Part shown: in pieces, positions 565 through 24,097 of the stretch | Numbering within the stretch: the stretch's first letter is position 1 | Layout: the number at the start of each line of letters is the position of its first letter | Origin: Komagataeibacter intermedius TF2 | GTDB lineage: Bacteria > Pseudomonadota > Alphaproteobacteria > Acetobacterales > Acetobacteraceae | Direction: 5' to 3' | Assembly: GCF_000964425.1 (NCBI RefSeq) | Contig: NZ_BANF01000031.1 | Coordinates: 124,001 to 188,000, forward strand | DNA: 64,000 nt | Notes under the pieces: model-generated | Told to the model about the DNA's origin: nothing | What the model saw: only the letters and a program-made list of their open reading frames with translations | The model's database searches: none | Made by a program: the position numbers and the translations under genes

Positions 565-948
565 ATCCATTACGTGCGTCATTCCCTGCTGCGGACAGGT
601 CCCATGATGCAGACCGGGGGGAAAGCCACGCAATCGGAAAAGCGGTCGGTCACACGATGGTGTTGGGGCAGCCGGGATCGGGCCGTCGACCCTGTCAGAT
701 GAGTTGCACTATCGGCCATCCACGTTACGATGGAACCGGAACGACCGTGTGCCGTCAGGGCAGGCCGCCCGGTCGTGGCGCGAACGGGGCCGGGTGCGGA
801 ACCTGTCATCATGCCGTTCCTGCCGGACCGGAGGGTGCTGCGGTCATGGGACGGCCGGGGCGCGGAACTGTCCCGTGCGGGTGGTGGAAACGTTGGGGCA
901 GGGGGAGCGGCCCGGGTCATGTCGTGCAGGATGGATGGTCAGGAAACG
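565..948. other. Intergenic region between divergent genes
   Basis: This stretch separates the GlcG-like gene from the RpiR regulator. An open frame extends upstream of the regulator through it, but the translation is low-complexity and has no domain, so I do not extend the gene. It should hold promoters for both flanking genes. I found no clear operator or terminator in it. Confidence 0.5.
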
Positions 949-1982: not shown

Positions 1983-2819
1983 TCATGCGCTGGTATTTCC
2001 GGCAGGCCAGCGCATTGGCCCGTCCGGGGTGGGCATGCTGCGGGCGGTCGCCCCCCAGACGGACTGATCGAAATTCACGATCGCGCCGGTCATGAGACCG
2101 GCATCATCCGAGACAAGAAAGTTCACCGCACGGGCGGCTTCCTCGGGTGCGACAAGTCGTCCGAACGGAAGCTTTGCGGCCGCCTTTTCCATCCAGTCGG
2201 GGTCGTTCGTCTCGCCCATCTGGATTTCGTGTTCCTTGTCCGACGCCATCCAGCCGATATTAAGCTGGTTGACGCGGATCCGGTTGCCCATGACGGAAAA
2301 GGCCGTATTGGCGGTCAGTGTGGCCAGCGCACCCTTTGATGCGCAGTACGCACTGATGAACGGCTGCCCCGACAGGGCGGAAATGGAGCCGATATTACAG
2401 ATCGCTCCTTCAGTCCCGTCCCGGATCATGTGCCTGATCGCCGCCTGCATCAGGAAATATGGCCCGCGCACGTTGGTTGCGAACATGCGGTCAAACAGGT
2501 CGGGGTCCGTATCCAGTATGGTGCCCCGCTGCGTCAGCGCCCCGGCGTTCACCAGCACATGCACACGGCCAAAGTGGTCATGTGTCCGGGCGATTGCCGC
2601 CTGGCAGTCCGCGACCGATTCAAGATCTGCACGGATGAAGAGCACGGGCACGCCGCAACTGTCCGAAATCTCGCGCGCGACTGCCGTGCCGCGCGCCTCG
2701 CTACGCCCCGTAATGGCAATGCCTGCAGCACCCGCCGCTGCAAGGCGGCGTGCAATGGCCGCCCCAAGCCCCTGCGTGGCCCCCGTGACCACGCATACCC
2801 TGTTATCCATCCGGTTCAT
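1983..2819 (-). CDS. SDR-family NAD(P)-dependent oxidoreductase
   Basis: This is a 278-residue classical short-chain dehydrogenase. The cofactor motif TGATQGLG lies at residues 13-20, the NAG motif at about 91-93, and the catalytic Ser-Tyr-Lys set in GSISALSGQP...SAYCASKGAL. The C-terminus ends with a long substrate loop and VNFDQSVWGATA. Its ATG overlaps the iolE stop in an ATGA arrangement, so it is translationally coupled as the third gene of iolD-iolE-SDR. The operon position suggests that it oxidises or reduces an inositol-derived keto or hydroxy intermediate. It could act before IolE (as an alternative inositol or inosose dehydrogenase) or after IolD. The substrate cannot be read from sequence. 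Confidence 0.85.
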   Translation of the reverse strand: MNRMDNRVCVVTGATQGLGAAIARRLAAAGAAGIAITGRSEARGTAVAREISDSCGVPVLFIRADLESVADCQAAIARTHDHFGRVHVLVNAGALTQRGTILDTDPDLFDRMFATNVRGPYFLMQAAIRHMIRDGTEGAICNIGSISALSGQPFISAYCASKGALATLTANTAFSVMGNRIRVNQLNIGWMASDKEHEIQMGETNDPDWMEKAAAKLPFGRLVAPEEAARAVNFLVSDDAGLMTGAIVNFDQSVWGATARSMPTPDGPMRWPAGNTSA

Positions 2820-3721
2820 GACGCCACCCTGTATTCCGCCTGCGCCATAAGCTGCATCAGCGCGGCATGCCCCTTGCGCGCCATGTCCAGCGGCGGGTTG
2901 AGGGCGGGGTCCTGCTCGGCCTCCACCACAAACCAGCCTTCATAGCCATAGGATGCAAGGCGTTTGATAATGGGCAGGAAATCGATCGACCCGTCCCCCG
3001 GCACGGTAAAGGCCCCCTTTACGACCGCGTCCAGGAAGCTTTCGCTGTTGCGGTCAAGGCTGTCGATGACAGCGTCGCGCACATCCTTGGTGTGCACGTG
3101 GCTTATGCGGGCATGGTGTCGGTCAATGACCCGCAGCAGGTTGCCACCCGCGAAATACATGTGCCCGGTATCAAACAGAAGGTGCAGCGCCGGGCCCGAA
3201 TGTTTCATCAGCAGGTCAAGCTCGGCCTCGGTCTCGATCGGGGCGGCCATATGGTGGTGATAGGCAAGGGGCATGCCTTCATCGGCGCACCATTCGGCAA
3301 AGGCCGTCATCCTGCGGCCATAGATCCGTATGTCTTCTTCCGACAGGCGCGGCTTGGTCGCAAGCGGCGCGGACCGGATTCCCTGGATCGACCGCGCGGT
3401 TTCGCCATAGACAATACATGGCGCGCGGGCGGCGATGAAAAAATCCATCTGGGCGCGGATGCGGTCCTTCTCCGCTTCCATGTCCCCATCCAGCAGCAGG
3501 CCCGAAAACCATCCCCCGCAGACCGAAATGCCGTAGCGTTTCAGGATCGGTCCCAGTTCGTGCATGTCCATGGGAAAGCGGCGTCCGGTTTCCATGCCGG
3601 TAAAGCCTGCCTCGCTGGCCTGGCGCAGGCATTCCTCCAGGCTGACATCATCTGACAGTTCCGCAAGGTCGTCATTCCACCATGCAATCGGTGCGATACC
3701 CAGTTTTGCCTTCATGGCCAT
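2816..3721 (-). CDS. iolE: myo-inosose-2 dehydratase IolE
   Basis: The protein has 301 residues, near the family length of about 300. It is a TIM-barrel of the AP-endonuclease-2/xylose isomerase-like superfamily. The opening GIAPIAWWNDD followed by LEECLRQASEAGFTGMETG is the IolE signature. Metal-binding residues of the barrel are visible in AYHHH, LLFDTGHMYFAGG, HVHTKD and FVVEAEQDP. The enzyme dehydrates 2-keto-myo-inositol to 3D-(3,5/4)-trihydroxycyclohexane-1,2-dione in the cytoplasm. Its ATG at 3721 overlaps the stop of iolD by one base (TAATG) and its stop overlaps the SDR start, so the three genes are one coupled transcript. A second in-frame ATG lies two codons in, at 3715. Confidence 0.93.
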   Translation of the reverse strand: MAMKAKLGIAPIAWWNDDLAELSDDVSLEECLRQASEAGFTGMETGRRFPMDMHELGPILKRYGISVCGGWFSGLLLDGDMEAEKDRIRAQMDFFIAARAPCIVYGETARSIQGIRSAPLATKPRLSEEDIRIYGRRMTAFAEWCADEGMPLAYHHHMAAPIETEAELDLLMKHSGPALHLLFDTGHMYFAGGNLLRVIDRHHARISHVHTKDVRDAVIDSLDRNSESFLDAVVKGAFTVPGDGSIDFLPIIKRLASYGYEGWFVVEAEQDPALNPPLDMARKGHAALMQLMAQAEYRVAS

Positions 3722-5591
3722 TACACTCCCACACGCTGTTTCGCGCGGATTTCTTCCTGTTGTTTTCTTGCCGTCTGCACCGATGCGCGGGTCGAGACCT
3801 CCGGCACCCCCACATCCCAGTCCGCATCGCCCGGCGTCCAGGCATGGGCGTCCGTGGTGATGGCAAGGATGGTGGTCCGGTCCGTGGTCTTCGCCCATTC
3901 AAGGGCCGTGGCCAGTTCGGCCATGCTGTCGCATCTGCGGCCCAGCGCGCCCATGGATTCGGCATGTTTGACAAAATCGACATGCAGGGGCCGGTCGGGA
4001 TGCTGCACGTGACAGTCAACCAGCAGGTTGTTGAAACCCGGCACGCCCTTGGCCTGCTGCAGGCGGTTGATGACCGCGAAGCCGCCATTGTCACAGACCA
4101 CGACAATCATCTTGTGGCCCGTCAGCACGGTGGAATAGATGTCGGAGTTCATCATCATGTACGTGCCGTCACCAATCATGACGATGGGCGTGCCGCCTGT
4201 CCCGCCCGGTCCCTCGCTGGCCATGGCGTGGCCCCAGCCCGCCGCGATTTCGTACCCCATGCATGAAAAGCCGAATTCAAGATCAAAGGTATTGGGGGCC
4301 TTGACCCGCCAGCCCTTGCACACTTCGCCCGGCAGGCCGCCCGCGGCGGTAATGATGGTGTCGCATTCCCCCGCTGCGTCATTGACCGCATGCACGACCT
4401 GCGCATAGGTCGGAACGGGGCATTCGTGGGGGCCTGCAGTTTTGTCAGCAGGTCGTCCCATTCGCCAAACAGGAGCCGGGCGCGCTGCATCTGTCGCGGG
4501 TCCGCTGTCCAGTCCCCCAGCAGCGTGTCGAATTCAGTTATGGTTTCCAGCGCGTCGCCCACAACCGCCAGCGCACGATGCTTGACCGCGTCAAACCGGG
4601 CGGTGTTGATGGAAATGAACCGCGCCGTCTGGCTGAACAGGGTCCATGACCCGGTGGTGAAATCCTGCAGCCGCGTGCCGATCGCCACGATCACATCCGC
4701 ATCCCCCGCCAGCGCATTGGCCGAGGTGGAGCCGATAATGCCGATCGGCCCGGCATGCGCTTCATGGTAATGCGTCACGCTGCCCTTGCCCGCGATCGTT
4801 TCCACAATCGGGATGCCGCGTTTTAGCGCAAATGCGGCGACGGCTTCCTCCGCCTGTGAATACCGCACCCCGCCGCCTGCGATCAGCAGCGGCTTTCTGG
4901 CCGTTTTCAGCAGGTCCACCGCCTGCGCCAGCCTGCGGCGGTCCGGCCGGGGGCGGGGAATGGCCCATAGTTTTTCTTCAAAGAAGGTGACGGGATAATC
5001 AAAGGCGATTTCCTGCACATCCTGCGGCAGGGATACAAAGGCCGGCCCGCAGTCGCCCGGATCAAGCATTGTTGCCGTGGCCTGCGGCAGGGATGACAGG
5101 ATCTGTGCCGGGTGCATGATCCGGTCCCAGTAGCGGGTCACGGCGCGGAACGCATCATTGACCGTTATTGTGGGATTACTGAAATGTTCGACCTGCTGCA
5201 GGACCGGGTCGGGCAGGCGCGTGGCGAAGGTATCGCCTGCCAGCAGCAGCAGCGGCAGGCGATTCGCATGCGCGGTGCCGGCGGCGGTCACCATATTCAG
5301 CGCGCCCGGCCCGATGGAGGACGTGGCAACCATGATCTGCCGCCGCCGCCGGGCCTTGGCGAAACCCGTTGCGGCCAGCGCCATGGACTGTTCATTCTGC
5401 CCGCGCCATGTGGGCAGCCTGTCCTGCACGGCTTCGAGCGCTTCGGACAGGCAACTGACGTTGCCATGGCCAAAAATGCCGAAGACTCCGGGGAAAAGCG
5501 GAACGCGCTGACCTTCGATTTCCGTAAACTGATTGACCAGCCATTGCACGATGGCCTGTGCAGTCGTGAGGCGGATTGTCGCCTGTGTCAT
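3721..5591 (-). pseudogene. iolD: iolD, 3D-(3,5/4)-trihydroxycyclohexane-1,2-dione acylhydrolase, frameshifted
   Basis: IolD is a thiamine-diphosphate enzyme that opens the cyclic dione to 5-deoxy-D-glucuronate. The start is ATG 5591, after an excellent ribosome site (AGGGAGGAAAC). The N-terminal part (to about 4420) has the VPLFPGVFGIFGHGNV opening and the central domain. The C-terminal part lies in another frame, with GFSCMGYEIAAGWGHA and the TPP motif GDGTYMMMNSD...VVVCDNGGF. Restoring one C in the CCCC tract at 4417-4420 (minus-strand sense) joins the halves as ...QAPTNAPVPTYAQVV..., giving about 623 residues, the normal length. The five-base tract at 4428-4432 is an equally possible site. 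Both halves are otherwise intact, so this is either a very recent mutation or a sequencing error. Confidence 0.88.
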
Positions 5592-6078
5592 TTTTGTTTC
5601 CTCCCTTGACGGGTTGTTGTCACCATATCCAAATGCAATAGACGTTGACAACACAATAAATACGCAACATTAATTGCAAATACAGAAAAGGAAGAAAGGA
5701 GCCTGCTGACCCGGCCCGATGATCGGGGACGCCGTCATGTGGACGCAGGGGGACAGATGGCATGCCGGTGGTGAACGCCGTAACGCTTGCACGGTTCATG
5801 ACACCATGACGCCACGACCATGAATGTTTACCCATGTTCAGGTGCCCCGGCGCCAGCAGTGGCGCGGTGGATGGCCGAACCGTCATCGAATGCGTGGAAA
5901 GGACGGTCCTGCTGCCTGGCACTGCCGATGGATATGTGCCGGACAACAGGGCAAGGACGGACTGGTGGGCAGTTTTACCTGCGGGACGGGATGCACGCCG
6001 TTCCCGTCTGCCGTCACCAGACGGGGCGATCAGGTCAATCGCCATATGTCGTGTCACAAGAATAATGGGGACCCAATA
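5592..6078. other. Divergent promoter region between iolD and the aldehyde dehydrogenase operon
   Basis: This region has no gene of its own. The frame of the aldehyde dehydrogenase runs back to 5824, but the extra translation is not family-like. The iolD side is AT-rich (5640-5700) and carries an inverted repeat described separately. The plus side ends with GGGGA about eight bases before ATG 6079. It should contain both promoters of the catabolic island. Confidence 0.55.
5615..5653. promoter_or_regulatory. Inverted repeat upstream of iolD (candidate operator)
   Basis: Perfect 8-base arms TGTTGTCA (5615-5622) and TGACAACA (5646-5653) lie 24-62 bases upstream of the iolD ATG. Read on the minus strand, the distal arm contains TTGTCA, which resembles a -35 box. 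With a 17-base gap it is followed by ATATGG. A repressor such as the nearby RpiR protein could bind here; no family consensus was matched. Confidence 0.4.
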
Positions 6079-7515
6079 ATGTACACGAATTTCGGGTTGT
6101 TTATTGATGGCGCGTGGCGTCAGGCATCGGAAGGAAAAACCGAGCCGGTTATAAGTCCCGTATCGGAAAGCCCGCTGGGCGATGTGCCCAGCGCGGGGGC
6201 CGTGGATACGCAGGCGGCCATTGACGCGGCGCATGCGGCGCTGGCGCGGTGGTCGACCACGCCCGCCCATGACCGCGCCGAAGCCCTGCATGCGATTGCC
6301 AATGAAATGATCCGCCGCACGGAGGAAGCCGCACGGATGATTTCCAGCGAGACAGGCAAGCCGCTGGCGCAGGCGCGTCGTGAATGGGGGCTGAGTATTG
6401 ACCAGTTCCGGTGGTATGCGGAAGAAGCACGCCGTATTTACGGGCGCATTATCGAAAGCCGTGTCCCGTCTGGCCGTTTCGAGGTCAGTCATGAACCGGT
6501 TGGCGTTGTCGCGGCATTTACGGCGTGGAACTTTCCGGCATCCCTGCTGGCGCGCAAGCTGGCGCCCGCGCTGGCGGCGGGCTGTCCGGTCATTGCCCGC
6601 CCGTCTTCCCAGACACCGGGCACCGCGATGGTCATGATTGCGTGCTGCCGGGCGGGCAACCTGCCGCCGGGCACTGTCAATCTGGTCGTCGGCTCGACGG
6701 AGGCGACCTACGGGCCGATCATGGCATCCAGGACCGTGCGCAAGGTTTCGCTAACCGGGTCTACGCGCGTCGGGCAGCAGATGATCCGTGACGCGGCGGA
6801 TACAATGAAAAAGGTGTCGATGGAACTGGGCGGGAATGCCCCGCTGATCGTCTATGATGATGCGGATCTGGATATGGCCCTGAATACGGCGGCGCAGGCC
6901 AAATTCGCCAATACGGGCCAGGTGTGCGTGGCGCCTGACCGTTTCTTTATCCATGACCGCCTGCATGACGCGTTTGTGGAAGGGTTCGTGACCCGCGCGA
7001 AGGCGATCAGGCTGGGAAACGGGCTGGATGATGGCGTGGGCATGGGCCCGCTGATCAACGCGCACCGTCTGGCGGAAATGGAGGCCATTGTTGCCGATGC
7101 CGTGGCCGGTGGCGCGAAAGTGACGACAGGCGGCCAGCGGCCACCGGGGTTCAACAGCGGCTATTTCTATGAACCGACGGTCCTGACCGATGTCACGGAT
7201 GATATGCGCGTGATGGCAGACGAAAATTTCGGGCCGATTGCCGCCATTACCCGTTTTTCAAGTGATGATGAAGTCCTGACCCGCGCCAATGCATCCGACA
7301 TGGGGCTTGCGGCCTATGCCTTCACCCGGTCGCCCGCGCGTGCGCGCCGCACTGTGGCCGAACTGCAGGCGGGCATGGTCGGGATCAATTCCACGGCCCT
7401 GGCCGCGGCGGAAGCACCCTTTGGTGGCACCCGTTTTTCCGGCATGGGCCGCGAAGGGGGCAGCGAGGGCATTCTTGATTATCTGGATGTAAAACTGGCA
7501 CAGGTGGTATTCTGA
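6079..7515 (+). CDS. NAD(P)-dependent aldehyde dehydrogenase (succinate-semialdehyde dehydrogenase-like)
   Basis: The gene encodes 478 residues from ATG 6079. It has the complete ALDH fold: FTAWNFP at the cofactor site, SLTGSTRVGQQM, the general base in MELGGNAP, the catalytic cysteine in NTGQVCVAPDRFF, and ENFGPIAA near the C-terminus. Closest family features are those of GabD-type semialdehyde and alpha-ketoglutarate semialdehyde dehydrogenases. It does not look like the CoA-acylating IolA/MmsA type used in classical inositol degradation. It is the first gene of a tight plus-strand operon (the next ATG is one base after its stop). In context I infer that it oxidises the free aldehyde of 5-deoxyglucuronate or a related product to the acid. 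Confidence 0.88.
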   Translation: MYTNFGLFIDGAWRQASEGKTEPVISPVSESPLGDVPSAGAVDTQAAIDAAHAALARWSTTPAHDRAEALHAIANEMIRRTEEAARMISSETGKPLAQARREWGLSIDQFRWYAEEARRIYGRIIESRVPSGRFEVSHEPVGVVAAFTAWNFPASLLARKLAPALAAGCPVIARPSSQTPGTAMVMIACCRAGNLPPGTVNLVVGSTEATYGPIMASRTVRKVSLTGSTRVGQQMIRDAADTMKKVSMELGGNAPLIVYDDADLDMALNTAAQAKFANTGQVCVAPDRFFIHDRLHDAFVEGFVTRAKAIRLGNGLDDGVGMGPLINAHRLAEMEAIVADAVAGGAKVTTGGQRPPGFNSGYFYEPTVLTDVTDDMRVMADENFGPIAAITRFSSDDEVLTRANASDMGLAAYAFTRSPARARRTVAELQAGMVGINSTALAAAEAPFGGTRFSGMGREGGSEGILDYLDVKLAQVVF

Positions 7516-7516
7516 C

Positions 7517-8329
7517 ATGATCCCCAATCGCCTCAAGCAGCTCTGGGCCGAAGGGAAATCCACGCTCAATGGCTGGTGTTCCATCGGCAACCCCTTCACG
7601 GCTGAAATCATGGCGGCCCAGGGGTATGATTCCGTCACGATAGATGTGCAGCATGGCGCGCTGGATTATTCCAGTGCGCTGCCCATGATGCAGGCCATGC
7701 GCGCCTCGGGCGTCGTGCCCATGGCGCGGGTTCCGTGGCTGGAGCCCGGCATCATCATGAAAATGCTCGACGCCGGTGCATATGGCGTCATCTGCCCCAT
7801 GGTGAATACGGCGGCACAGGCGGCCGAATTCGTAAGTTATGTCCGCTATCCCCCCTATGGGCAGCGCAGTTTTGGCCCGACGCGCGTTTCATTCGCGGCG
7901 GGCAGCAATTACGCCAGCCAGGCCAATGACGAACTCCTTGCCTTTGCCATGATCGAGACGCAGCAGGGCATGGACAATCTGGCTGAAATTGCCGCGACCC
8001 CGGGGCTTGATGGCATTTATGTCGGTCCTGCCGACCTGACGTTCAGCCTTGCGGGCGGACGCCTTCCCCCCGGTTTCGACCGGGAGGAAGCGGAGATGAT
8101 CGACAGGCTGCACGAGATCATCGCTGCCTGTCAGGATAGTGGCATTCGCGCCGCCCTTCACTGCGGCACGCCGGAATATGCCGCGCGCGCCATTGGCTGG
8201 GGGTTCAACATGACCACCGTGTCGGGGGATTCCCGCCTGCTGGCCGCAGCGGCGGGCGCAAGTGTCGCGCAGTTCCGCAGGCTTGTCAGCCGCGACAGTG
8301 TGACCGTGGTGCAGGGAGGGGCGTACTGA
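7517..8329 (+). CDS. HpcH/HpaI-family class II 2-oxo-acid aldolase
   Basis: The 270-residue protein is a TIM-barrel aldolase of the HpaI/RhmA/GarL family. The family residues are visible: VTIDVQHGALDY, the substrate-binding Arg of MARVPWLEPG, the metal-binding Glu in AMIETQQGMDNL and the metal-binding Asp in YVGPADLTFSLAGG. The C-terminal His-Cys stretch (ALHCGTP) and the PPYGQR loop also fit. These enzymes split 4-hydroxy-2-oxo acids into pyruvate, or a pyruvate analogue such as hydroxypyruvate, plus an aldehyde, with Mg2+ or Mn2+. It replaces the missing phosphorylated-substrate aldolase IolJ in this cluster. It is coupled to the next gene by a TGATG overlap. Confidence 0.9.
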   Translation: MIPNRLKQLWAEGKSTLNGWCSIGNPFTAEIMAAQGYDSVTIDVQHGALDYSSALPMMQAMRASGVVPMARVPWLEPGIIMKMLDAGAYGVICPMVNTAAQAAEFVSYVRYPPYGQRSFGPTRVSFAAGSNYASQANDELLAFAMIETQQGMDNLAEIAATPGLDGIYVGPADLTFSLAGGRLPPGFDREEAEMIDRLHEIIAACQDSGIRAALHCGTPEYAARAIGWGFNMTTVSGDSRLLAAAAGASVAQFRRLVSRDSVTVVQGGAY

Positions 8330-9291
8330 TGCCCCACGTACTGGTCGCGGGGCGCCTGCATTATGCGGGTCTTGCGCTGCTCGACCATGCCCCCGGCGTG
8401 ACCTATGACTATGTCGAGGAAATATCGGAAGACAGCTACGCCCCCCTTGTGGCCCGTGCCGATGCCCTGATCCTGCGCACCCAGCCGCTTTCGGCCGTAA
8501 CGGTGGGCAGGGCATCGCGGCTCAGGGTCGTGTCCCGGCACGGCGTTGGCTATGACGGCATCGACCTGCCTGCGCTGGACCGGCGCGGCATTACCCTGTG
8601 TGTGGTGGGGAACGTCAATGCGGTCTCCGTCGCCGAACACGCAATGACCCTCATACTCGCCTGCGCCAAACATCTGCTTCAGGCGGACCGGGCCGTGCGC
8701 CAGGGCCAGTGGGAGTGGCGCAACAGGCTCATGGCGGGCGAGGTGGGGGGCAGGCGGCTTCTGATACTGGGGTATGGCCGCACCGGGCGGCATCTTGCCA
8801 CCATGGCTGCGGGCTTTGGCATGAAAATCCGCGCCTATGATCCCTACCTGTCCACCGGGGGAAAATGGCCCGCAGGCCCGGTGGGCGAGGTCGCGGACCT
8901 GCATGACGGGCTGGAATGGGCCGATATCATCTCGGTCAACGTACCAAAGGGCGACCAGCCGTTGATTGGCGCGGCCGAACTGCGCCGCGTCAGGCCGGGG
9001 GGTATCATCGTCAATACCGCACGTGGCGGCGTGGTGGATGAGGCCGCGCTGGCCACGGCCATCGTGAACGGGCATGTCGCGGCGGCAGGGGTGGATGTAT
9101 TCGACCCCGAACCGCCATCCGTCCACAATCCCTTGATTGGCCTGGATCGTGTCATCCTGACGCCCCACATCGCCGGGCTGACCGCACAGGCGGCGGAGCG
9201 CATGGCGGTTGGCTGCGTGCGGAATGTTCTGGATTTCTTTGCTGGCACACTTGATCCCACCCTTATCGTGAACAGGGAATTCGTCAAATGA
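8329..9291 (+). CDS. D-2-hydroxyacid dehydrogenase (SerA/GhrB-like, no ACT domain)
   Basis: The 320-residue protein is a D-isomer-specific 2-hydroxyacid dehydrogenase. The NAD-binding motif GYGRTGRHLA is followed by the acidic AYDPY. The catalytic triad is visible as the Arg in NTARGGVVDE, the Glu in DVFDPEPP and the His in LTPHIAGLT. There is no C-terminal ACT domain, so it is not a regulated serine-pathway enzyme. Such proteins typically reduce hydroxypyruvate or glyoxylate, or oxidise 2-hydroxy acids. Next to an aldolase predicted to release hydroxypyruvate, reduction to D-glycerate is a natural role, though this is an inference. It overlaps both neighbours in the operon (TGATG before it, ATGA after it). 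Confidence 0.9.
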   Translation: MPHVLVAGRLHYAGLALLDHAPGVTYDYVEEISEDSYAPLVARADALILRTQPLSAVTVGRASRLRVVSRHGVGYDGIDLPALDRRGITLCVVGNVNAVSVAEHAMTLILACAKHLLQADRAVRQGQWEWRNRLMAGEVGGRRLLILGYGRTGRHLATMAAGFGMKIRAYDPYLSTGGKWPAGPVGEVADLHDGLEWADIISVNVPKGDQPLIGAAELRRVRPGGIIVNTARGGVVDEAALATAIVNGHVAAAGVDVFDPEPPSVHNPLIGLDRVILTPHIAGLTAQAAERMAVGCVRNVLDFFAGTLDPTLIVNREFVK

Positions 9292-10466
9292 CCAAACGTA
9301 AGCTGCGTATTGGCCTGATTGGCAGCGGTTTCATGGGCCGGACCCATGCTTTCGGCTATTCAACCGCATCAAAGGTGTTCGACCTGCCGTTCCAGCCGGA
9401 ACTGGCCTGCCTGGCCGATATTTCGGAAGATGCGGCGGCACGGGCAGCCGGGGCGCTGGGGTTTGCACGCTGGACGGATGACTGGCGTGCCCTTGTGGCT
9501 GATCCCGACATCGACGTGATCAACATCACCGCGCCCAATGCCCTGCACAAGGAGATGGCGCTTGCAGCCATAGCGGAGGGCAAGCACGTCTATTGTGAAA
9601 AACCCCTGGCCCCCCTTGCCGCGGATGCGCGTGAAATGGCCGAAGCGGCAGAGGCGCGGGGCGTGAAGACACAGGTCGGATTCAATTACCTGTGCAACCC
9701 CATGTTCGCGCTGGCGCGCGAGATGATCGCGGCGGGCGAACTGGGTGAAATCCGTGGGTACCGCGGCCTGCATGCGGAAGATTACATGGCGGATGCCGCA
9801 TCTCCCTTCACGTTCCGTCTGGACCCGGTGGGGGGCGGGGCGCTGGCCGATATCGGCAGCCACGCGCTGGCCACCGCCGAATTCCTGATGGGACCGGCGG
9901 CGGGTGCGATTACGCAGGTCATGGGTGACTGTGTCACGGTGATCGGGTCACGGCCGGACGGGAAAGGAGGCACCCGCGCAGTGCAGGTGGATGATATCGG
10001 CCGCGCCTTCCTGCGTTTCGAGAACGGGGCGACAGGTTCGGTCGAAGGGAACTGGATTGCGACCGGGCGCACCATGCAGCATGATTTCGAGGTCTATGGC
10101 ACGAAGGGTGCGCTGGCCTTCAGCCAGCAGCGGTTTAATGAGCTGCATTTCTTCTCGACCGCGGATGCGCGGGGCCGCAGGGGATTCCGCCGTATTGAGG
10201 CCGGGCCGGACCATGCGCCCTACGGGCTGTTCTGCGTGGCGCCGGGGCACCAGCTTGGGTTCAATGACCTCAAGGCGATAGAAGTCGCACGCTATCTGGA
10301 GGCACTGGCTGGCAACCGGCCCGAACCGTTCAGCTTCCGCGCGGGCCTGCGTATCCAGACGCTGGTGGAAGCCATTCATGATTCAAGCCGCGCCGCCGCA
10401 TGGCGTGACGTGCCGATGGACAGGGTCGCGCGTCGGCACGAACACCGGCAGCATGAACAGGCATGA
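9288..10466 (+). CDS. Gfo/Idh/MocA-family oxidoreductase (first of two)
   Basis: The protein has 392 residues. The N-terminal Rossmann domain has GLIGSGFMGRTHA and the conserved EKPLAPL after the NAD site (residues about 100-106). The C-terminal alpha/beta domain follows, with GGGALADIGSHALATAEF, which supplies the Asp-x-x-x-His active-site pair. Family members oxidise cyclitols, sugars or aldonates with NAD(P). Its start overlaps the hydroxyacid dehydrogenase stop (ATGA). In the island it could make the 2-oxo acid needed by the aldolase, or dehydrogenate an inositol stereoisomer such as scyllo- or chiro-inositol. It differs clearly from IolG at 15-16 kb. Confidence 0.88.
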   Translation: MTKRKLRIGLIGSGFMGRTHAFGYSTASKVFDLPFQPELACLADISEDAAARAAGALGFARWTDDWRALVADPDIDVINITAPNALHKEMALAAIAEGKHVYCEKPLAPLAADAREMAEAAEARGVKTQVGFNYLCNPMFALAREMIAAGELGEIRGYRGLHAEDYMADAASPFTFRLDPVGGGALADIGSHALATAEFLMGPAAGAITQVMGDCVTVIGSRPDGKGGTRAVQVDDIGRAFLRFENGATGSVEGNWIATGRTMQHDFEVYGTKGALAFSQQRFNELHFFSTADARGRRGFRRIEAGPDHAPYGLFCVAPGHQLGFNDLKAIEVARYLEALAGNRPEPFSFRAGLRIQTLVEAIHDSSRAAAWRDVPMDRVARRHEHRQHEQA

Positions 10467-10502
10467 CGGCCCCATATCTTGCCATTTTATGGAGGGAGCA
10501 CC

Positions 10503-11627
10503 ATGACCCAGCCAACCCATGACCGGAAGATCCGCTACGCCGTGATCGGATGTGGGCAGATTTCCCGGCAATCCTTTATTCCCGGTCTCGAACGGGCTGC
10601 CAATTCTACCCTGGCGGCCCTTGTGACGGGCGACATGCACAAGGCGCAGGACCTCGGAACCCGCTATGGCGTGCGGGTCTGGCATTATGATGACCTGCCG
10701 GAGCTTCTGGCATCGGGGGAGATCGACGCCGTGTATCTGGCAACGCCAAATGCACTGCACCGGCGCTATGCCGTGCCCGTGCTGGAGGCGGGGCTGCACC
10801 TGCTGCTGGAAAAACCCATGGCCACAAGCGTGGAAGACTGCGAGGCGATCCTGCAGGCGCGGCGCAGGGGTGGCGGCAGGCTGATGATTGCCTACCGGCT
10901 GCATTGCGAGCCGGGAACAGTGGAACTGGTTTCACGCTGCCGCAATGGGGACTTCGGCTCTCTTGTCGGGTTCAGTTCGGTCTTCGGGCAGGACGTGCCG
11001 CAGTCAAACCATCGCGCCCATGGCGGGTACTGGTCCGGTCCCGTGCCGGATCTGGGCAATTACCCGATCAATGCGGTGCGCCACATGTTCGGGGCCGAAC
11101 CCGTGGAGGTCACGGCCACAGGCACGCGCACGCCGGGCCGGACCTTCAATTTTGATGATACGGTGTCGGTCGTGCTGCGCTTTGCGGATGGGCGGATCGC
11201 GGATTTTATGGTCAGCTATGCCTGTGCGCCGGTTGAGGGACTGACCCTGTTCGGCAGCCGGGGCAGTGTCAGGGCCATGCCATGCTATACCTTCGGCCCA
11301 TCCGTCGCCATTACTTACACCACGCTGATTGACGGCAGGGAAGACAGGCGCAGCCATGGCCCGGTCGAACAGTTCGGGGGGGAAGCCTTCTATTTTTCGG
11401 AATGCATCCTCAATAACCGCGATCCCGAACCAGATGGCGAGGACGGGCTGCGTGATGTCCGTGTGCTGGTCGCGGTGGAAGCGGCCCTGCGCACCGGGAA
11501 ACCGCAGTCCCTGCCGCCGCTTGCCCCGCGCGAGGGGATACGTGAAGACCAGGTCGTCATCCTGCCGCCCGTGGCCGAACCGCATGAAAGCGACCTGACC
11601 GGCGTGATGCCACAGGCCGTGTCATGA
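10503..11627 (+). CDS. Gfo/Idh/MocA-family oxidoreductase (second of two)
   Basis: The gene encodes 374 residues from ATG 10503, preceded by GGAGGGAG; an ATG 24 bases upstream lacks such a site. It opens with YAVIGCGQISRQSF (Rossmann motif), has LLLEKPMATS, and a GYWSGPVPDLGNYPINAVRH active-site segment in place of the usual D-x-x-x-H. The region resembles glucose-fructose oxidoreductase and xylose dehydrogenase relatives (GRTFNFDDTVSVVLRFADG). It lies 36 bases behind the first Gfo gene, in the same operon. The substrate is unknown. It is only distantly similar to its neighbour, so the pair is not a simple recent duplication. Confidence 0.86.
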   Translation: MTQPTHDRKIRYAVIGCGQISRQSFIPGLERAANSTLAALVTGDMHKAQDLGTRYGVRVWHYDDLPELLASGEIDAVYLATPNALHRRYAVPVLEAGLHLLLEKPMATSVEDCEAILQARRRGGGRLMIAYRLHCEPGTVELVSRCRNGDFGSLVGFSSVFGQDVPQSNHRAHGGYWSGPVPDLGNYPINAVRHMFGAEPVEVTATGTRTPGRTFNFDDTVSVVLRFADGRIADFMVSYACAPVEGLTLFGSRGSVRAMPCYTFGPSVAITYTTLIDGREDRRSHGPVEQFGGEAFYFSECILNNRDPEPDGEDGLRDVRVLVAVEAALRTGKPQSLPPLAPREGIREDQVVILPPVAEPHESDLTGVMPQAVS

Positions 11628-11667
11628 CCCGCGACCGCGCGGCTTCATCCATGCAAGGACGGACATC

Positions 11668-12186
11668 ATGACAGTCACGACCTGTCCCCGACCCCTGAAC
11701 CATATCGGGATCAGCGTGCCCGATATTGACCGCGCCATTGCGTGGTACGGCGAGGTTCTGGGCTACCGGCTGTTCAGCGGCCCGTTCGATCTGGTCGCCA
11801 GCCCACCCGCACTGGCGCAGTTTCAGGATGCGTTGGGGGAGCGGTGCCAGCATGTGCGCATCGCGCATCTTTCAACGGGTGGGGGCGTGGGAATTGAACT
11901 GTTCCAGCCTGTCCTGCCAGCGACCCTGCCCGCGACCACGGATATCCGCTTCGATCAGCCCGGTCCCTTTCACATATGCGTCACGGACCCGGATATAGAA
12001 GGGCTGATCGACAGGATTGTTGCGACAGGGGGCACCCAGACGTCCCGCATATGGGACGATCGCCCCCCATCGGGCATATACCGGATGGTGTACTGTCGCG
12101 ACCCGTTTGGCACTGTTATCGAAATCCATACGCATTCCTGTGAAATCGTTCAGGGATGGCGGGAGGGAAAACAGACGGGCCAGTAG
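11668..12186 (+). CDS. VOC-family (glyoxalase/bleomycin-fold) protein
   Basis: The 172-residue protein opens with LNHIGISVPDIDRAIAWYGEVLGY, the standard first beta-alpha-beta module of the vicinal-oxygen-chelate fold with its His ligand. A second module (GPFHICVTDPDIEGLIDRIVATGG) ends with YCRDPFGTVIEIHTH, carrying the metal-binding Glu. VOC enzymes are small metal-dependent isomerases, lyases, epimerases or dioxygenases. As the last gene of the island's main operon (40 bases after the second Gfo gene), it could isomerise or epimerise a ring or keto-acid intermediate. No specific function can be read. Confidence 0.82.
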   Translation: MTVTTCPRPLNHIGISVPDIDRAIAWYGEVLGYRLFSGPFDLVASPPALAQFQDALGERCQHVRIAHLSTGGGVGIELFQPVLPATLPATTDIRFDQPGPFHICVTDPDIEGLIDRIVATGGTQTSRIWDDRPPSGIYRMVYCRDPFGTVIEIHTHSCEIVQGWREGKQTGQ

Positions 12187-12646
12187 AACTGTCCTGCTAT
12201 GGGCACGATGCATTCATGACGTTCATGCATCTGCTTTTGAAAGCATCAGTCCATACGTTCCAGTATATGTTTCCCGTAAACACATAATGACCGGAGAACC
12301 ATGAATGTACACGGGCGTTGAACGCATTATTCAATGCCTGCCCGGTCCGGTTTTATTTCATTTTCAGTTTCCTGTCCCTGCGCGTTCATGGCGCGGGATA
12401 TGAAGCCGCCGTATCCGGTCCCGATGCATGTCGTGGCCGCCGTGTCTTTCGGGACCGGCTGCACACATGGCGCCGGGCGTGGAAACGGGTCGGTACCGCA
12501 GGGACAGGACCGCGGGCATGGTGGCCGGGGCAGGCTGCCGTCGCGCCATGCACTTTACGGCTGGATTCATTTAAAGGCGCGGACTGTCGTCCCGCGTCCC
12601 TCTGCTGAAACAGACAACAAGAACAAAATGACTGTTGGAGTAGTAA
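12187..12646. other. Non-coding region before the MFS transporter
   Basis: A gap of 460 bases separates the operon from the transporter. I see no gene in it. Short frames on both strands have no family-like content. It probably contains a separate promoter for the transporter; GGAG at about 12636 is its ribosome site. Confidence 0.5.
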
Positions 12647-14134
12647 ATGATGAAAGAATCCATAAAAAACGCCATGTTTGTCCGATCGGACCGGCATGAC
12701 GTGGGCTACGTGCTGCGAATATGTGCGATTGCGGCATTGGGTGGCATCCTGTTCGGGTATGATACGGCGGTCATTTCGGGCGCTGTCGGGTCGCTGCAGT
12801 CCTATTTCCACCTTTCACCGGCGGAAATCGGCTGGGCGGTCTCCAACGTGCTGCTGGGCTGTATCCTTGGGGCCGGGGTTTCGGGCTGGCTGGCGGACCG
12901 CTTTGGCCGCCGTCCCACCCTGGCCGTGTCCGCCGCACTGTTTACCGGATCGGCGATCGGGGCGGCGCTGGCGACGGGTTTTACATCCTTCGTGGTCTAT
13001 CGCTTCATCGGCGGGATCGCGGTAGGTGTGGCGTCTTCGATTTCGCCTATGTACATGTCCGAAGTATCGCCAAAGGACATGCGCGGACGGGCTCTGTACA
13101 TGGAATCCTTCGCCATTGTGGGAGGGCAGTTGACGGTCTTTATCGTCAACTACCTGATTGCCCGCAGCGCCAGCGAAGCGTGGCTGACGAACGTGGGCTG
13201 GCGGTGGATGCTGGGGTCGGAAGTCATACCGTGCATCGTATTCTGCATCGCGATTTTCTTCATGCCTGAATCCCCGCGCTGGCACGTGCTGCGTGGGCGC
13301 GATGCCGATGCGATGCGGACCCTGACCCGCATTTCCAATGAACGTCATGCCCGATCGGTCCTGACGGAAATCAAGGAATCGCTTGAACACAAGATCGAGA
13401 CATCCGATCTGGGCCGGGCGGTCGCCTCAAAGGGGGCACGGTGGATCATCTTCGTGGGGGCCATGGTCGCCATGCTGCAGCAGCTGACGGGCGTGAACAG
13501 CATGATGTACTACGCGCCGCTGGTGCTGGGGTCGGTCAGTGGCAGCGTGCAGAACGCCCTGTTCCAGACCATATGGATCGGGGTGGCATCCGTATCGGGC
13601 GCAGTGCTGGGCAGTTGGGTGATTGACCACAAGGGGCGGCTGCCGCTGTTCCGGTTCGGTTCGATCGGCATGATTATCGGCCTGCTGGCCACATCCTGGG
13701 CGCTTTATACACAGACGCATGGGTATTCCGCCCTGGTGGGCATGCTGGTTTACATGCTGCTGTTCGGCCTGTCGTGGGGGCCGCTGACATGGGTGCTGAT
13801 CGCAGAGATCTTCCCCAACCGGATCCGTGGCGTAGGCATGAGCATTGCGGTGTCGGCCAACTGGGTGATGAACTTCATCGTCAGCCAGCTTTTCCCGATG
13901 ATGGCGCAGAATCACAGGCTGGACGCGCTTTTTCATGGTGCGCTGCCGATGTGGCTTTTCGCGCTCTTTACACTGTTTTCGTGGTGGTTCGTTGAACGGT
14001 ATGTGCCGGAAACGAAAGGCATCGCGCTGGAAAAGATCGAAAGCGTCATGCTGACCCCAAAGCGCCGACGCGCGGCGGCCGGCACGCCAACGGTCCCGAC
14101 AGATGGCCTGACGGATATGGTCGGGCGGAAATGA
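12647..14134 (+). CDS. Sugar-porter MFS transporter (candidate inositol importer)
   Basis: The 495-residue inner-membrane protein has 12 predicted helices and the sugar-porter signatures: GGILFGYDTAVISGAVG in helix 1, DRFGRRP after helix 2, a middle PESPRW after helix 6, QQLTGVNSMMYYAP in helix 7 and VPETKG before the C-terminal tail. It belongs to the XylE/GalP/IolT group of proton symporters for hexoses, pentoses or cyclitols. Its position between the oxidative operon and the decarboxylase gene makes myo-inositol the most economical guess. Specificity within this group cannot be read from sequence, so the substrate is an inference. Confidence 0.92.
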   Translation: MMKESIKNAMFVRSDRHDVGYVLRICAIAALGGILFGYDTAVISGAVGSLQSYFHLSPAEIGWAVSNVLLGCILGAGVSGWLADRFGRRPTLAVSAALFTGSAIGAALATGFTSFVVYRFIGGIAVGVASSISPMYMSEVSPKDMRGRALYMESFAIVGGQLTVFIVNYLIARSASEAWLTNVGWRWMLGSEVIPCIVFCIAIFFMPESPRWHVLRGRDADAMRTLTRISNERHARSVLTEIKESLEHKIETSDLGRAVASKGARWIIFVGAMVAMLQQLTGVNSMMYYAPLVLGSVSGSVQNALFQTIWIGVASVSGAVLGSWVIDHKGRLPLFRFGSIGMIIGLLATSWALYTQTHGYSALVGMLVYMLLFGLSWGPLTWVLIAEIFPNRIRGVGMSIAVSANWVMNFIVSQLFPMMAQNHRLDALFHGALPMWLFALFTLFSWWFVERYVPETKGIALEKIESVMLTPKRRRAAAGTPTVPTDGLTDMVGRK

Positions 14135-14248
14135 CCCTGTCGGGGAAAGGGGGCGCGCGGCGGGTCCCGCCGTACGCCCGTTTGCGGGGACAGGGCGCGC
14201 AGGAAAGAAAACCGCGCCTGTTTCCTTTTGTTCACAGGGAGAAAACTG

Positions 14249-14659
14249 ATGCCGCTTTTACATTTCCACATGCTTGAAGGGCGCACGGATGAAGAAATCC
14301 GCACCCTTCTCGACGCGGCGCACGAAGCCATGCTCGAAGCATTCGCCGTGCCGCGTCGCGACCGTTATCAGCTTGTATCGGAATACAGGCCATCGTGCAT
14401 GATTGTCGAGGATACGGGGCTGGATATCCCCCGGACGGACAGGGTCCTGGTCGTGCAGATGTTCAGCCGCCCCCGTGGGGCGGACAAGACAGCCGAGTTC
14501 TACCGCCTGCTGACTGAACGGCTGGAACGCGAATGCGGGATCGCGCCGTCCGACGTCATGGTGTCGGTTGTCGAGAATGAAGACGCCCACTGGTCTTTCG
14601 GGAACGGGCGGGCGCAGTTTCTGACTGGCGAACTTGGCGGGGGCAGACCCGTTCACTGA
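14249..14659 (+). CDS. Malonate semialdehyde decarboxylase (tautomerase superfamily)
   Basis: The gene encodes 136 residues from ATG 14249, after AGGGAG. Removal of Met exposes Pro1, the catalytic base of tautomerase-superfamily enzymes. Numbering from Pro1, I count Asp37, Arg73 and Arg75 (SRPRG) and the hydrophobic wall Trp114, Phe116, Phe123 and Leu128. These are the residues described for the malonate semialdehyde decarboxylase of Pseudomonas pavonaceae. That enzyme hydratively decarboxylates malonate semialdehyde to acetaldehyde and CO2, and was known from haloacrylate degradation. No haloacid genes occur here. Malonate semialdehyde is, however, the product of lower inositol catabolism, so this gene is likely the terminal step of the island. 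Confidence 0.88.
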   Translation: MPLLHFHMLEGRTDEEIRTLLDAAHEAMLEAFAVPRRDRYQLVSEYRPSCMIVEDTGLDIPRTDRVLVVQMFSRPRGADKTAEFYRLLTERLERECGIAPSDVMVSVVENEDAHWSFGNGRAQFLTGELGGGRPVH

Positions 14660-14676
14660 CGCGCACGCTGCAAATA

Positions 14677-14704
14677 CCGTGGGGGTGTCATTATGCCCCC
14701 ACGG
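14677..14704. terminator. Hairpin after the decarboxylase gene
   Basis: A perfect 9-base stem (CCGTGGGGG / CCCCCACGG) encloses a 10-base loop, 18 bases after the decarboxylase stop. No T-run follows directly, but TTTTTT occurs about 13 bases on. It sits in the 373-base gap between converging genes, which otherwise holds no gene. Confidence 0.6.
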
Positions 14705-14986
14705 AACAGCGCCATGAACGTTTTTTACAGAAGACGGCATCCGCGGAACGGGTGCCATGTATTATCAGGCTGTGTTTGAAAACAGTTTCCAGTCTGCCAT
14801 GCGCATGGATTGCTGATGCCCATCGACTGTATCCAGCAATGCGCACTGCCTGCCTTCGGCATATATGAAACTGTATTTACCGTATCCGTTCCATGACGCA
14901 CTGACGCGTGCGATCCCCTGCGCCGGGTCTGACGCCTTACAGGGGATGCCGCGTGAATTCCCCGATATGCAGGTAAAGGCAGGCCC

Positions 14987-15017
14987 GCGCCCGGCAGCCT
15001 GTTACGGTGCCGGGCGC
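14987..15017. terminator. GC-rich hairpin beyond the 3' end of iolG
   Basis: Perfect 10-base arms GCGCCCGGCA and TGCCGGGCGC enclose an 11-base loop, 16 bases past the iolG stop. No T-run is visible on the minus strand, so it may work as a Rho-assisted or bidirectional stop. Confidence 0.55.
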
Positions 15018-15032
15018 ATGGCAGGCCCGGCG

Positions 15033-16040
15033 TTACCCGATTTCACCTGTCGTCACGATGCGGCCTTCCTTAAGCGATTTCAGGGCCGCTTCGGCAAGGA
15101 GCAGCGCCTGTCGTCCGTCATGATAGCTGACGGTAACCGGGCTGCCGTTTTCAACAGCATCGACAAAGGCGTCGATTTCCGCATTAAATGCCTCACGGTA
15201 GCGTTCTATGAAAAAGTTCAGCAGCGGGGCGGCATGTTCGGTAAACGTGCTGCCCGACAGCACCATGTGGTGCGGACGACGGTTTTCCGAAACCGCCATA
15301 CCCTGACTGCCAAAGGCCTCGACCCGCTGGTCATAGCCATATGTCGCCTCACGCGAGTTGATGAGGATCGCCTGTCTGCCCGTATCCGTTGTCATCACCA
15401 CCGTAATGGTGTCCTCATCCCCCAGCGCGTCCATAAGCGCAGGGGCCACCAGTCGCGATCCGACGGCGAATACCCGGGTCGGCTCCTCGCCCAGGATATA
15501 GCGGGCCATGTCAAAATCATGGATCGTCATGTCCCGCAGGATCCCGCCGGATTTTTCCAGATAGGCTTCCGGCGGCAGGCCCGGGTCGCGCGATGTGATG
15601 ACAAGCTGGTGCAGGTCCCCGATCGTCCCGTCATGAACCGCTTCGAACACCGCCCGGTGTCCGGGGTCGAACCGCCGCACGAACCCGATCTGGACCGGCA
15701 GGGTCGTGTGGGCAATGGCCGCGGCGCAGCTGTCCACCCGTGCAAGGCTGAGGTCGATCGGTTTTTCGCACAGCACGGGCTTGCCTGCCGCGATTGCCTG
15801 TTCCAGCAGGTCGGCATGGGTATCGGTCGCGGTTGCGATCAGTACCGCGTCCACATCGGGGGCGGCAAAGACTTCGGCCGCGGATGGCATGACGGGGGCA
15901 CCTGTTGCCCTGGATACGGCCTGCGCCGCAGCAACGTTGATGTCATATACCGCCGCGACGCGCGCGCGTGGATGGGCGGCAATATTGGCGGCATGCATGG
16001 CGCCGATACGCCCACATCCCAGAATGCCGATTCCAAGCAT
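15033..16040 (-). CDS. iolG: Inositol 2-dehydrogenase IolG
   Basis: The gene encodes 335 residues from ATG 16040, preceded by AGGGAG; an upstream in-frame start lacks this. It is a Gfo/Idh/MocA protein with GILGCGRIGAMHA (NAD site), VLCEKPIDL (catalytic Lys), QIGFVRRFD and the IolG-typical MTIHDFDMARYILG, which supplies the Asp and His of the active site. The enzyme oxidises myo-inositol to 2-keto-myo-inositol, the first step and the substrate maker for IolE. It stands alone, converging on the decarboxylase gene and separated from the iolDE operon by the oxidative operon. This fits a three-transcript island. Confidence 0.9.
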   Translation of the reverse strand: MLGIGILGCGRIGAMHAANIAAHPRARVAAVYDINVAAAQAVSRATGAPVMPSAAEVFAAPDVDAVLIATATDTHADLLEQAIAAGKPVLCEKPIDLSLARVDSCAAAIAHTTLPVQIGFVRRFDPGHRAVFEAVHDGTIGDLHQLVITSRDPGLPPEAYLEKSGGILRDMTIHDFDMARYILGEEPTRVFAVGSRLVAPALMDALGDEDTITVVMTTDTGRQAILINSREATYGYDQRVEAFGSQGMAVSENRRPHHMVLSGSTFTEHAAPLLNFFIERYREAFNAEIDAFVDAVENGSPVTVSYHDGRQALLLAEAALKSLKEGRIVTTGEIG

Positions 16041-19220: not shown

Positions 19221-19294
19221 TCAGCTGCACCTTGTTTTTATTATCATTGTGCGCAGGACAACCCGATCGTACCGCCCTGCCGGGTGCGCCGCAA

Positions 19295-20020: not shown

Positions 20021-20207
20021 GACTTTCTCCTGATGTACACCGGGTGAGGGATGTCGTGCCGGACGGGTGCTTTTCTTCGGGGGCGGCTCTTGCGTTCCCC
20101 GGAAAAAAGACCCGTCTGTATCCGATCCGTGCCACGGCATCACGTCACCCCTGCGGCATTGCCGCAGGTACATGTTTTTCTGGTTTGTGAATGATCGGGG
20201 TGCCGCC

Positions 20208-21407: not shown

Positions 21408-21485
21408 GAAGATGTTCTCTTGATTATTGTTTATTATTATGACGGTTGATCTGTACTTGCGCCGTCGCCCGGAATGGACGCTCCC

Positions 21486-23963: not shown

Positions 23964-24097
23964 CAATATCAATCCTGTCTCAATCCATGCCGTATCTGGT
24001 CTGGACACCCCAGAACGCCCTTGCCCTTACTGCAACACGCAGCGCCCCTTCCATCAGGCTATCGTGACCGGGCAGGGCGCACAGGGAGAACAGAGGA

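Follow-up and report, generated by a model that had tools for sequence, protein, structure and literature searches.

We describe a conserved gene module in a 64,000-nucleotide stretch of DNA from Komagataeibacter intermedius TF2 (contig NZ_BANF01000031.1, positions 124,001 to 188,000; hereafter the window). The module combines two inositol enzymes, IolE and an IolD of a distinct clade (IolD2), with an aldehyde dehydrogenase (ALDH), an HpcH/HpaI class II aldolase (HpcH) and a D-2-hydroxyacid dehydrogenase (HADH), and is usually accompanied by an SDR oxidoreductase, a Gfo/Idh/MocA protein (Gfo1) and a MurR/RpiR family regulator. On the basis of sequence comparisons, we consider it somewhat more probable than not that this module encodes a lower branch of inositol breakdown that works without a kinase. 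The classical bacterial route for myo-inositol runs through IolG, IolE, IolD, IolB, IolC, IolJ and IolA. The module keeps the IolG, IolE and IolD steps and probably shares malonate semialdehyde (MSA) as a product, while an oxidation and the HpcH aldolase would replace the isomerase, the kinase and the phospho-aldolase.

In the proposed route, IolG and Gfo1 would convert myo- or scyllo-inositol into scyllo-inosose, which IolE would dehydrate, and IolD2 would open the ring to give 5-deoxy-D-glucuronate. Oxidation of its aldehyde group by ALDH would then yield 5-deoxy-D-glucarate. An NAD enzyme (HADH being the first choice) would oxidize C2 of this acid to give 2-oxo-3,4-dihydroxyadipate, and HpcH would cleave the latter into hydroxypyruvate and MSA. 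Alternatively, or additionally, HADH may reduce hydroxypyruvate to D-glycerate. In Komagataeibacter, MSA would be drained by a malonate semialdehyde decarboxylase (MSAD), giving acetaldehyde and CO2; some other bacteria would use an IolA-type dehydrogenase for this purpose, and the drainage would pull the reversible aldol step. Gene content, conservation, the separate IolD clade, the operator motif and the lack of IolB, IolC and IolA above the cut-offs come directly from the sequences. We infer all of the substrates, as well as the order of steps after IolD, and the assignment of individual enzymes is less settled than the overall chemistry. A first-pass annotation of the window had outlined a route of this type. 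All of the genes that it named are present, including a frameshifted iolD, and its statement that it knew of no described route with these steps agrees with our finding none in the open PubMed Central literature searched (preprints not covered).

Classical lower enzymes and conservation of the module

The first-pass annotation reported no IolB, IolC or IolA near these genes, and the same holds for the window genome as a whole (3.88 Mb, 943 contigs, completeness 100). IolB gave no match at E≤1, the best IolC candidate reached 116 bits against a cut-off of 300, and the best candidate for methylmalonate semialdehyde dehydrogenase (MMSDH/IolA) reached 294 bits against 448.5. A fused IolC-aldolase would have come up in the IolC search; no separate search for IolJ was made. 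Among 14 genomes of the genus, including the window genome, IolD is present in three (E≤1e-120), IolB (E≤1e-30) and IolC (E≤1e-40) in none, and MMSDH in none of the three that carry IolD (E≤1e-100). Although the window assembly is fragmented, the absence of these enzymes is corroborated by the other module-bearing Komagataeibacter, G367 (∼60 contigs) and G391 (∼110 contigs), which are less fragmented and likewise have no IolB, IolC or MMSDH. That the gene module is real, and that the classical lower enzymes are missing in Komagataeibacter, is well supported by these comparisons.

The module recurs far outside the genus. Among the matches listed, the closest named relatives of the window aldolase gene are from K. 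diospyri (94%), K. swingsii (93%), K. europaeus (91%) and K. rhaeticus (88%). In the family, 106 of 150 genomes have an HpcH match (E≤1e-20), mostly at 40–55% identity among those listed. SDR, IolE, IolD, ALDH, HpcH, HADH and Gfo1 occur together in eight further family genomes (loci L040, L041, L097, L098, L099, L102, L104 and L107), with the RpiR regulator missing only from the L040 stretch; two more modules (L103 and L106) are truncated by contig ends. None of the 20 classical IolD loci examined (L117-L136) has HpcH or HADH (E≤1e-10).

When 84,980 species genomes were scanned with an aldolase alignment, the best 80 of 545 confirmed loci, all selected for HpcH, were taken for analysis; 62 of these have IolD2 within 10 kb. 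Neighbors in these 62 loci (≥40% identity, 10 kb flanks) include HADH in 61, ALDH in 59, SDR in 56, IolE in 54, RpiR in 52, Gfo1 in 50 and IolG in 43, compared with four for IolC, two for MSAD and one each for IolB and MMSDH. The loci come from Rhizobium, Mesorhizobium, Paracoccus, Rhodobacteraceae, Thalassospira and others, and because of this recurrence across many genera the gene arrangement exceeds chance. The first-pass annotation had suggested a comparison in Acetobacteraceae; the conserved ALDH-HpcH-HADH unit with IolE and IolD extends to many alphaproteobacterial genera beyond that family. Its view that each enzyme class listed has a task in the route is qualified by the distribution of some of them: 13 of the 62 loci contain relatives of the second Gfo/Idh/MocA protein (Gfo2), and the window-type VOC protein (1/62), sugar porter (2/62) and MSAD are confined, among the 62, to Komagataeibacter clusters.

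The IolD proteins of the module form a clade distinct from that of the classical IolD. A tree of 162 IolD sequences, built by a quick method and rooted at the midpoint, places all 71 module rows within one group of 75 (SH-aLRT 100), whose remaining members are L100, L101 and, on short contigs, L108 and L113. The other main group holds 80 classical rows, L117-L136 included, and no module row. Seven intermediate rows (L109-L112 and L114-L116) lie on the module side of the tree, with no module in the stretches read.

Relatives of HpcH are also found on plasmids (28 PLSDB records, E≤1e-80). The module is present on three of the four plasmids inspected, namely Acidiphilium multivorum pACMV1, a Rhizobium leguminosarum plasmid and a Paracoccus alcaliphilus plasmid; the fourth, from Agrobacterium, has an HpcH relative but no module. 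The P. alcaliphilus plasmid carries both sets of lower enzymes in a single stretch, iolB-iolC-Gfo-TIM-SDR-iolE-iolD / iolG-ALDH-HpcH-HADH-Gfo-RpiR, where TIM denotes a TIM-barrel protein.

Enzymes of the proposed route

By sequence, the closest relative of HpcH with a solved structure is SwHKA of Sphingomonas wittichii RW1 (PDB 6R62), an HpcH/HpaI family aldolase whose chains score 192 bits, followed by the next structure at 131 bits. Residues D43, H46, R71, E147 and D173, which we take to include the catalytic histidine and arginine and the metal-binding glutamate and aspartate, are kept in all close HpcH sequences compared (12/12, 62/62 and 18/18; 92 in total, with the same species repeated in part). 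The module aldolase differs from SwHKA in the column of Phe210, which was located through a chain carrying tryptophan instead of phenylalanine: it has His215, as do 12/12, 61/62 and 18/18 of the sequences, while E. coli GarL has leucine. SwHKA has been used with hydroxypyruvate (PMC10099721). The module suggests a physiological pathway for an aldolase of this kind, whereas the excerpted text of that report gives none for SwHKA. The cleavage into hydroxypyruvate and MSA put forward by the first-pass annotation is favored by this kinship and by MSA being a likely product, whereas His215 offers no proof of it.

Aldolase pathways without phosphorylation include that of D-glucarate, via GarD and GarL, and the Dahms pathway. 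The proposed branch resembles them in that an oxidized sugar acid would be cleaved unphosphorylated by a 2-oxoacid aldolase, whether of the HpcH type (GarL) or of another. It differs in its second oxidation, which would take the place of a dehydration, and in the expected release of hydroxypyruvate instead of pyruvate. A variant closer to these pathways, with 5-deoxyglucarate dehydrated to a 2-oxo-3-deoxy acid that HpcH would split into pyruvate and MSA, appears improbable. The window does encode an IlvD/EDD-type L-arabinonate dehydratase (24098-25879; PRK13016, 1065 bits, cut-off 882) that could take this role in Komagataeibacter and is also found in K. rhaeticus, HpcH relatives adjoin IlvD/EDD or MR/MLE dehydratases elsewhere, and a lone HpcH of K. 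europaeus lies ∼8 kb from an L-arabinonate dehydratase. However, just one of 73 IolD2 loci (K. rhaeticus L148) contains this dehydratase, within flanks of at most 10 kb and with the K. diospyri loci ending earlier, and an MR/MLE dehydratase (one query) was found in 0/73. The variant would also leave the almost invariant HADH without a task, and the window dehydratase belongs with a separate cluster that encodes a membrane GMC dehydrogenase, a lactonase-like protein, an MFS carrier and a LysR regulator. A separate sugar-acid pathway around the dehydratase may explain the lone HpcH in K. europaeus.

The ALDH is closest to succinate semialdehyde dehydrogenases; succinate semialdehyde and 5-deoxyglucuronate, the proposed substrate, both have a carboxylate at the far end. 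In HADH, R232, E261, H280 and D171 are invariant in 11/11 sequences, consistent with an Arg/Glu/His triad, presumably catalytic, and with a GxGxxG-17x-D motif that we take as an NAD fingerprint. Its relatives include glyoxylate/hydroxypyruvate reductases, phosphoglycerate dehydrogenase and a probable 2-ketogluconate reductase. C2 of 5-deoxyglucarate would, from its stereochemistry, be part of a D-2-hydroxyacid, and HADH is in the nearly invariant core; for these reasons, HADH is our first choice for the C2 oxidation. It is more likely, as the more economical solution, to make the 2-oxo acid, with hydroxypyruvate reduction as the alternative.

The first-pass annotation had distributed these two roles differently, with Gfo or SDR making the 2-oxo acid and HADH reducing hydroxypyruvate to D-glycerate. 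We regard this assignment, a sub-version whose likelihood overlaps that of the proposed branch, as less likely than not. In its favor, HADH is akin to glyoxylate/hydroxypyruvate reductases besides phosphoglycerate dehydrogenase, and both SDR and Gfo1 are frequent in the loci. However, each is missing in some clusters: both are lacking in L199 and L217, and the R. leguminosarum plasmid module has Gfo1 but no SDR at E≤1e-20. IolD2, ALDH, HADH and HpcH would suffice to reach hydroxypyruvate and MSA without these two non-universal proteins, and the NAD fingerprint of HADH suits an oxidation.

Gfo1 itself points in another direction. Its best structural match is an unnamed oxidoreductase (4fb5, 276 bits), followed by LgdA (PDB 5YA8, 262 bits), with which it shares the catalytic and most of the cyclitol-binding residues. 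By the residue list of LgdA (PMC5969746), Gfo1 retains Lys106, Tyr135, Glu165, Arg178, Asp191, His195 and His318, and Tyr163 is replaced by histidine. Because these residues are retained, Gfo1 is probably a cyclitol dehydrogenase of the scyllo-inositol type, which speaks against the earlier suggestion that it acts on 5-deoxyglucarate. The L-glucose pathway of Paracoccus laeviglucosivorans runs through L-gluconate; the module, unlike that pathway, would proceed via IolE, IolD2 and the aldolase.

The best evidence for MSA as a likely product is the presence of two unrelated MSA enzymes, MSAD and MMSDH, in a few module clusters. The window MSAD aligns with PDB 2aag in the proline after methionine and in the SRPR and DRYQ stretches, residues to which we assign catalytic roles. 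The cluster-type copy (90–100% identity) was found in three of the 34 genomes searched, exactly the three module-bearing Komagataeibacter; within the genus this corresponds to 3/3 module genomes and 0/11 others. We rejected the idea that MSAD marks module genomes exclusively, since a paralog with 60–70% identity occurs in six of the 11 genomes of the genus without the module. MMSDH directly follows Gfo1 in G130 and G341 (the G341 copy, truncated where its contig stops, scores slightly below the cut-off) and is near the module in Sinirhodobacter populi (L183).

Carrier genomes and alternative readings

Of 42 named genomes searched, 41 count as carriers; K. swingsii, which has nothing but a lone HpcH, was excluded. 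In these genomes IolB was called at E≤1e-10 and IolC at E≤1e-60, and sole-IolD status was judged at E≤1e-100. The module IolD stands without IolB and IolC in K. diospyri, K. rhaeticus and Acuticoccus kalidii, as well as in G304 and the window genome. IolD2 is the sole IolD in S. populi (G417) and Rhizobiales AFS002495 (G419), where iolB and iolC share its contig at a distance of at most ∼9 kb, and in Ectorhizobium quercum (G423), with IolB and IolC on a different contig. The P. alcaliphilus plasmid shows the layout of G417 and G419. The position of a sole IolD2 beside iolB and iolC, together with its family membership, makes 5-deoxyglucuronate the likely product of IolD2 and the likely branch point of two lower routes.

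A number of observations weigh against the proposed branch, or at least limit its reach. The first concerns the carriers themselves, as 38 of 41 have IolB and 38 of 41 have IolC; because of this, the module may serve another cyclitol in those bacteria. The outline of a kinase-free route is thus supported, but in genomes with iolB and iolC the module is no replacement for the classical route, contrary to the strongest form of the proposal. A pathway for another cyclitol (scyllo- or chiro-inositol, or a methyl or amino inositol), using the same chemistry on a 5-deoxyhexuronate that IolB refuses, so that the oxidative route runs beside the classical one, is unlikely overall. It would account for the prevalence of IolB, for at least two IolD matches in 35 of the 42 genomes, for the LgdA-like Gfo1 and for a binding protein in one cluster that has kinship with the rhizopine transporter family (214 bits, cut-off 420). 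It is at odds with G417 and G419, whose only IolD is an IolD2 beside iolB and iolC, as well as with the IolG-type gene in 43 of the 62 loci and the window IolG scoring above the inositol 2-dehydrogenase cut-off.

The second group of observations concerns incomplete or separated gene sets. IolD2 and IolE, ∼75–80% identical to those of the window, occur without ALDH, HpcH and HADH in the stretches L100 (G058) and L101 (G134); ALDH is absent from the module of L105 (G304) in the 18 kb read; and 18 of the best 80 aldolase loci, those of K. europaeus and K. swingsii among them, lack IolD2. Across the family, IolD is found in 134 of 397 genomes (E≤1e-120) and IolB in 55 (E≤1e-30). Eighteen family genomes picked for a classical-type IolD without IolB also have no IolC above the cut-off (15 at 147–172 bits, three unmatched at E≤1e-40). 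The stretch read around their IolD holds neither HpcH nor HADH; IolE, IolG and ABC-transporter-like genes are recurring neighbors there. These bacteria may have another isomerase, kinase, outlet or route, or their IolD may have a different role. Since they lack the module as well, missing IolB and IolC do not alone prove that the module is the outlet, and the stand-alone carriers are suggestive but no proof.

Such cases might be read as showing that ALDH, HpcH, HADH and Gfo1 make up a sugar or sugar-acid pathway of their own, linked to IolE and IolD2 by nothing but regulation and place. We judge this to be a rather remote alternative. Two Nioella loci (L207 and L215) do have ALDH-HpcH-HADH-Gfo1 without IolD2 within 10 kb, G058 and G134 show the converse, and the family genomes with a classical-type IolD and no IolB, IolC or module indicate that another outlet for the IolD product may exist. 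On the other hand, the near-constant presence of HADH and ALDH in the IolD2 loci (61/62 and 59/62) argues against independence, which would also leave the MSA enzymes in the clusters unexplained. We also considered L100 and L101 as an additional pathway variant; the annotated genes around IolD2 and IolE in L101 encode an epimerase, a glycosyltransferase and regulators of the LysR and AsnC types, two further frames have no Pfam match, no catabolic set was seen, and this idea was rejected.

The third group concerns the enzymes. His215 was abandoned as a diagnostic residue for hydroxypyruvate, as histidine is also present in 11/11 correctly read HpcH paralogs; it is compatible with hydroxypyruvate use, with no diagnostic value. 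HpcH relatives lie beside sugar-acid dehydratases in L222 and on the Agrobacterium plasmid, where pyruvate would be expected. Most clusters have no MSA enzyme within 10 kb (MSAD 2/62, MMSDH 1/62), and one query for glycerate kinase found none in the module loci searched. This query came from the P. alcaliphilus plasmid, which has a DUF4147 gene, presumably of the glycerate kinase family, ∼8.5 kb from the module. Finally, the frame of the window's own iolD is broken.

Our confidence in the proposed kinase-free branch is moderate, and is reduced by the 18 IolD genomes without IolB, IolC or module and by the scarcity of MSA enzymes in the clusters. The wider view, that many Alphaproteobacteria have a second, kinase-free inositol route, in numerous cases alongside the classical one and partly on plasmids, and that it is the sole route in some Komagataeibacter and in A. 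kalidii, seems to us slightly more probable than its opposite.

Gene layout, regulation and implications

The features of the window module are listed in Table 1. Two divergent units meet at 5592-6078, one running leftward on the minus strand (iolD-iolE-SDR) and the other rightward on the plus strand (ALDH-HpcH-HADH-Gfo1-Gfo2-VOC, then the sugar porter and MSAD). The right end carries iolG on the minus strand, and the RpiR gene is at the opposite end.

Table 1. Features of the inositol-related module in the window.
Feature	Position	Strand	Remarks
MurR/RpiR family regulator (HTH_6 + SIS)	730..1848	+	Pfam; real start possibly further in; probably regulates the module
SDR oxidoreductase, NCBIfam PRK06198 subfamily	1983..2819	-
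IolE, myo-inosose-2 dehydratase	2816..3715	-	TIGR04379, 389 bits (cut-off 290); start MKAKLG at 3715
IolD2, trihydroxycyclohexanedione hydrolase, distinct clade	3721..5591	-	TIGR04377; frame broken
Probable operator GCAAC-N4-ATTGC	5664..5677	.	iolD/ALDH intergenic region; consensus GCAAT-N4-ATTGC
ALDH, SSADH-like, 478 aa	6079..7515	+	proposed 5-deoxyglucuronate dehydrogenase
HpcH/HpaI class II aldolase	7517..8329	+	proposed 2-oxo-3,4-dihydroxyadipate aldolase
HADH, D-2-hydroxyacid dehydrogenase	8329..9291	+	proposed 5-deoxyglucarate 2-dehydrogenase or hydroxypyruvate reductase
Gfo1, Gfo/Idh/MocA, LgdA (scyllo-inositol dehydrogenase) type	9288..10466	+
Gfo2, Gfo/Idh/MocA	10479..11627	+
VOC protein, glyoxalase fold	11668..12186	+	outside conserved core
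Sugar porter (MFS)	12647..14134	+	proposed cyclitol uptake; present too in K. diospyri and K. rhaeticus clusters
MSAD, tautomerase superfamily	14249..14659	+	PDB 2aag, E 6.5e-46
IolG, inositol 2-dehydrogenase	15033..16040	-	TIGR04380, 405 bits (cut-off 355)

Owing to the frame break, the N-terminal part of the window IolD scores 556 bits against the TIGR04377 cut-off of 715, which the relatives in G367 and G391 exceed (806 and 803 bits). Compared with K. diospyri (90% identity, otherwise gap-free), the window iolD has one base fewer at ∼4416-4420; the iolD2 frame is unbroken in both K. diospyri and K. rhaeticus. The missing base may be a sequencing error, a possibility raised by the fragmented assembly, or a recent mutation.

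A palindrome count in 66 intergenic regions between iolD2 and ALDH (or IolG) found GCAAT-N4-ATTGC in 35; in five mononucleotide shuffles, no palindrome occurred in more than two regions. In the 61 scan loci, this motif is present in 56 with at most one mismatch and in 35 exactly, against a background of 0.12 per kb in the rest of these loci; as the motif was discovered in the regions in which it was counted, the count is descriptive. The site at 5664 in the window has one mismatch, with a weaker copy at 5635. The 64 kb contain five such matches versus 4.3 expected, and the single site is inconspicuous when taken alone. None was found upstream of the window iolG; in K. rhaeticus L148, whose iolG is distant, a second exact copy (16794) immediately precedes that gene. 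GCAAT-N4-ATTGC is probably the site of action of an RpiR-type regulator. The motif GGAA-N6-TTCC, taken as the classical alphaproteobacterial IolR motif, is absent from the window and from all 61 intergenic regions (0/61), and for this reason the module is probably under a different operator from that of the classical route.

Several arrangements were noted around the module and its relatives. A TIM-barrel protein with a weak IolE-family match (62 bits in L176, where it occupies 2805-3869) is encoded in 24 module loci, in several of which it adjoins another Gfo protein beside the SDR. In L218, a Paracoccaceae metagenome-assembled genome, IolD2-HpcH-HADH-Gfo1 is followed by an IolB homologue (49%). 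L042 (G084, 9054-14222) groups RpiR, HpcH, HADH, Gfo and an IolE-type protein, with no IolD2 or ALDH, and possibly represents a related pathway for a different sugar. L043 (G042, 7910-10271) has an HpcH, 62% identical to that of the window, adjoining an MMSDH-like gene, with no IolD2 in the 20 kb read. K. europaeus (L146, 10001-10813) and K. swingsii (L147, 10001-10810) each have a lone open HpcH and an ALDH scrap, followed by the cytochrome c gene, in the place that the module occupies in the window; these two species have probably lost the module by a deletion that spared the aldolase. Downstream of the window module, the separate sugar-acid cluster (16177-25879) encodes a cytochrome c, a GMC oxidoreductase and a gluconate-2-dehydrogenase subunit 3, forming the membrane dehydrogenase, along with a weak MRJP/lactonase-like protein, an MFS carrier and a LysR regulator.

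The capacity to use inositol is frequently called from iolBCDE; a large survey of iol genes, for example, counts a genome only when it has three of these four genes (PMC9430895). Bacteria that depend on the module would be scored as inositol-negative, or as having a broken pathway, when called from iolBCDE. If the proposed branch is correct, it would add an inositol route whose intermediates are absent from the inositol pathways in the literature searched, would provide a natural task for hydroxypyruvate-type HpcH aldolases, and would explain why many rhizobia, paracocci and rhodobacters have a second IolD.

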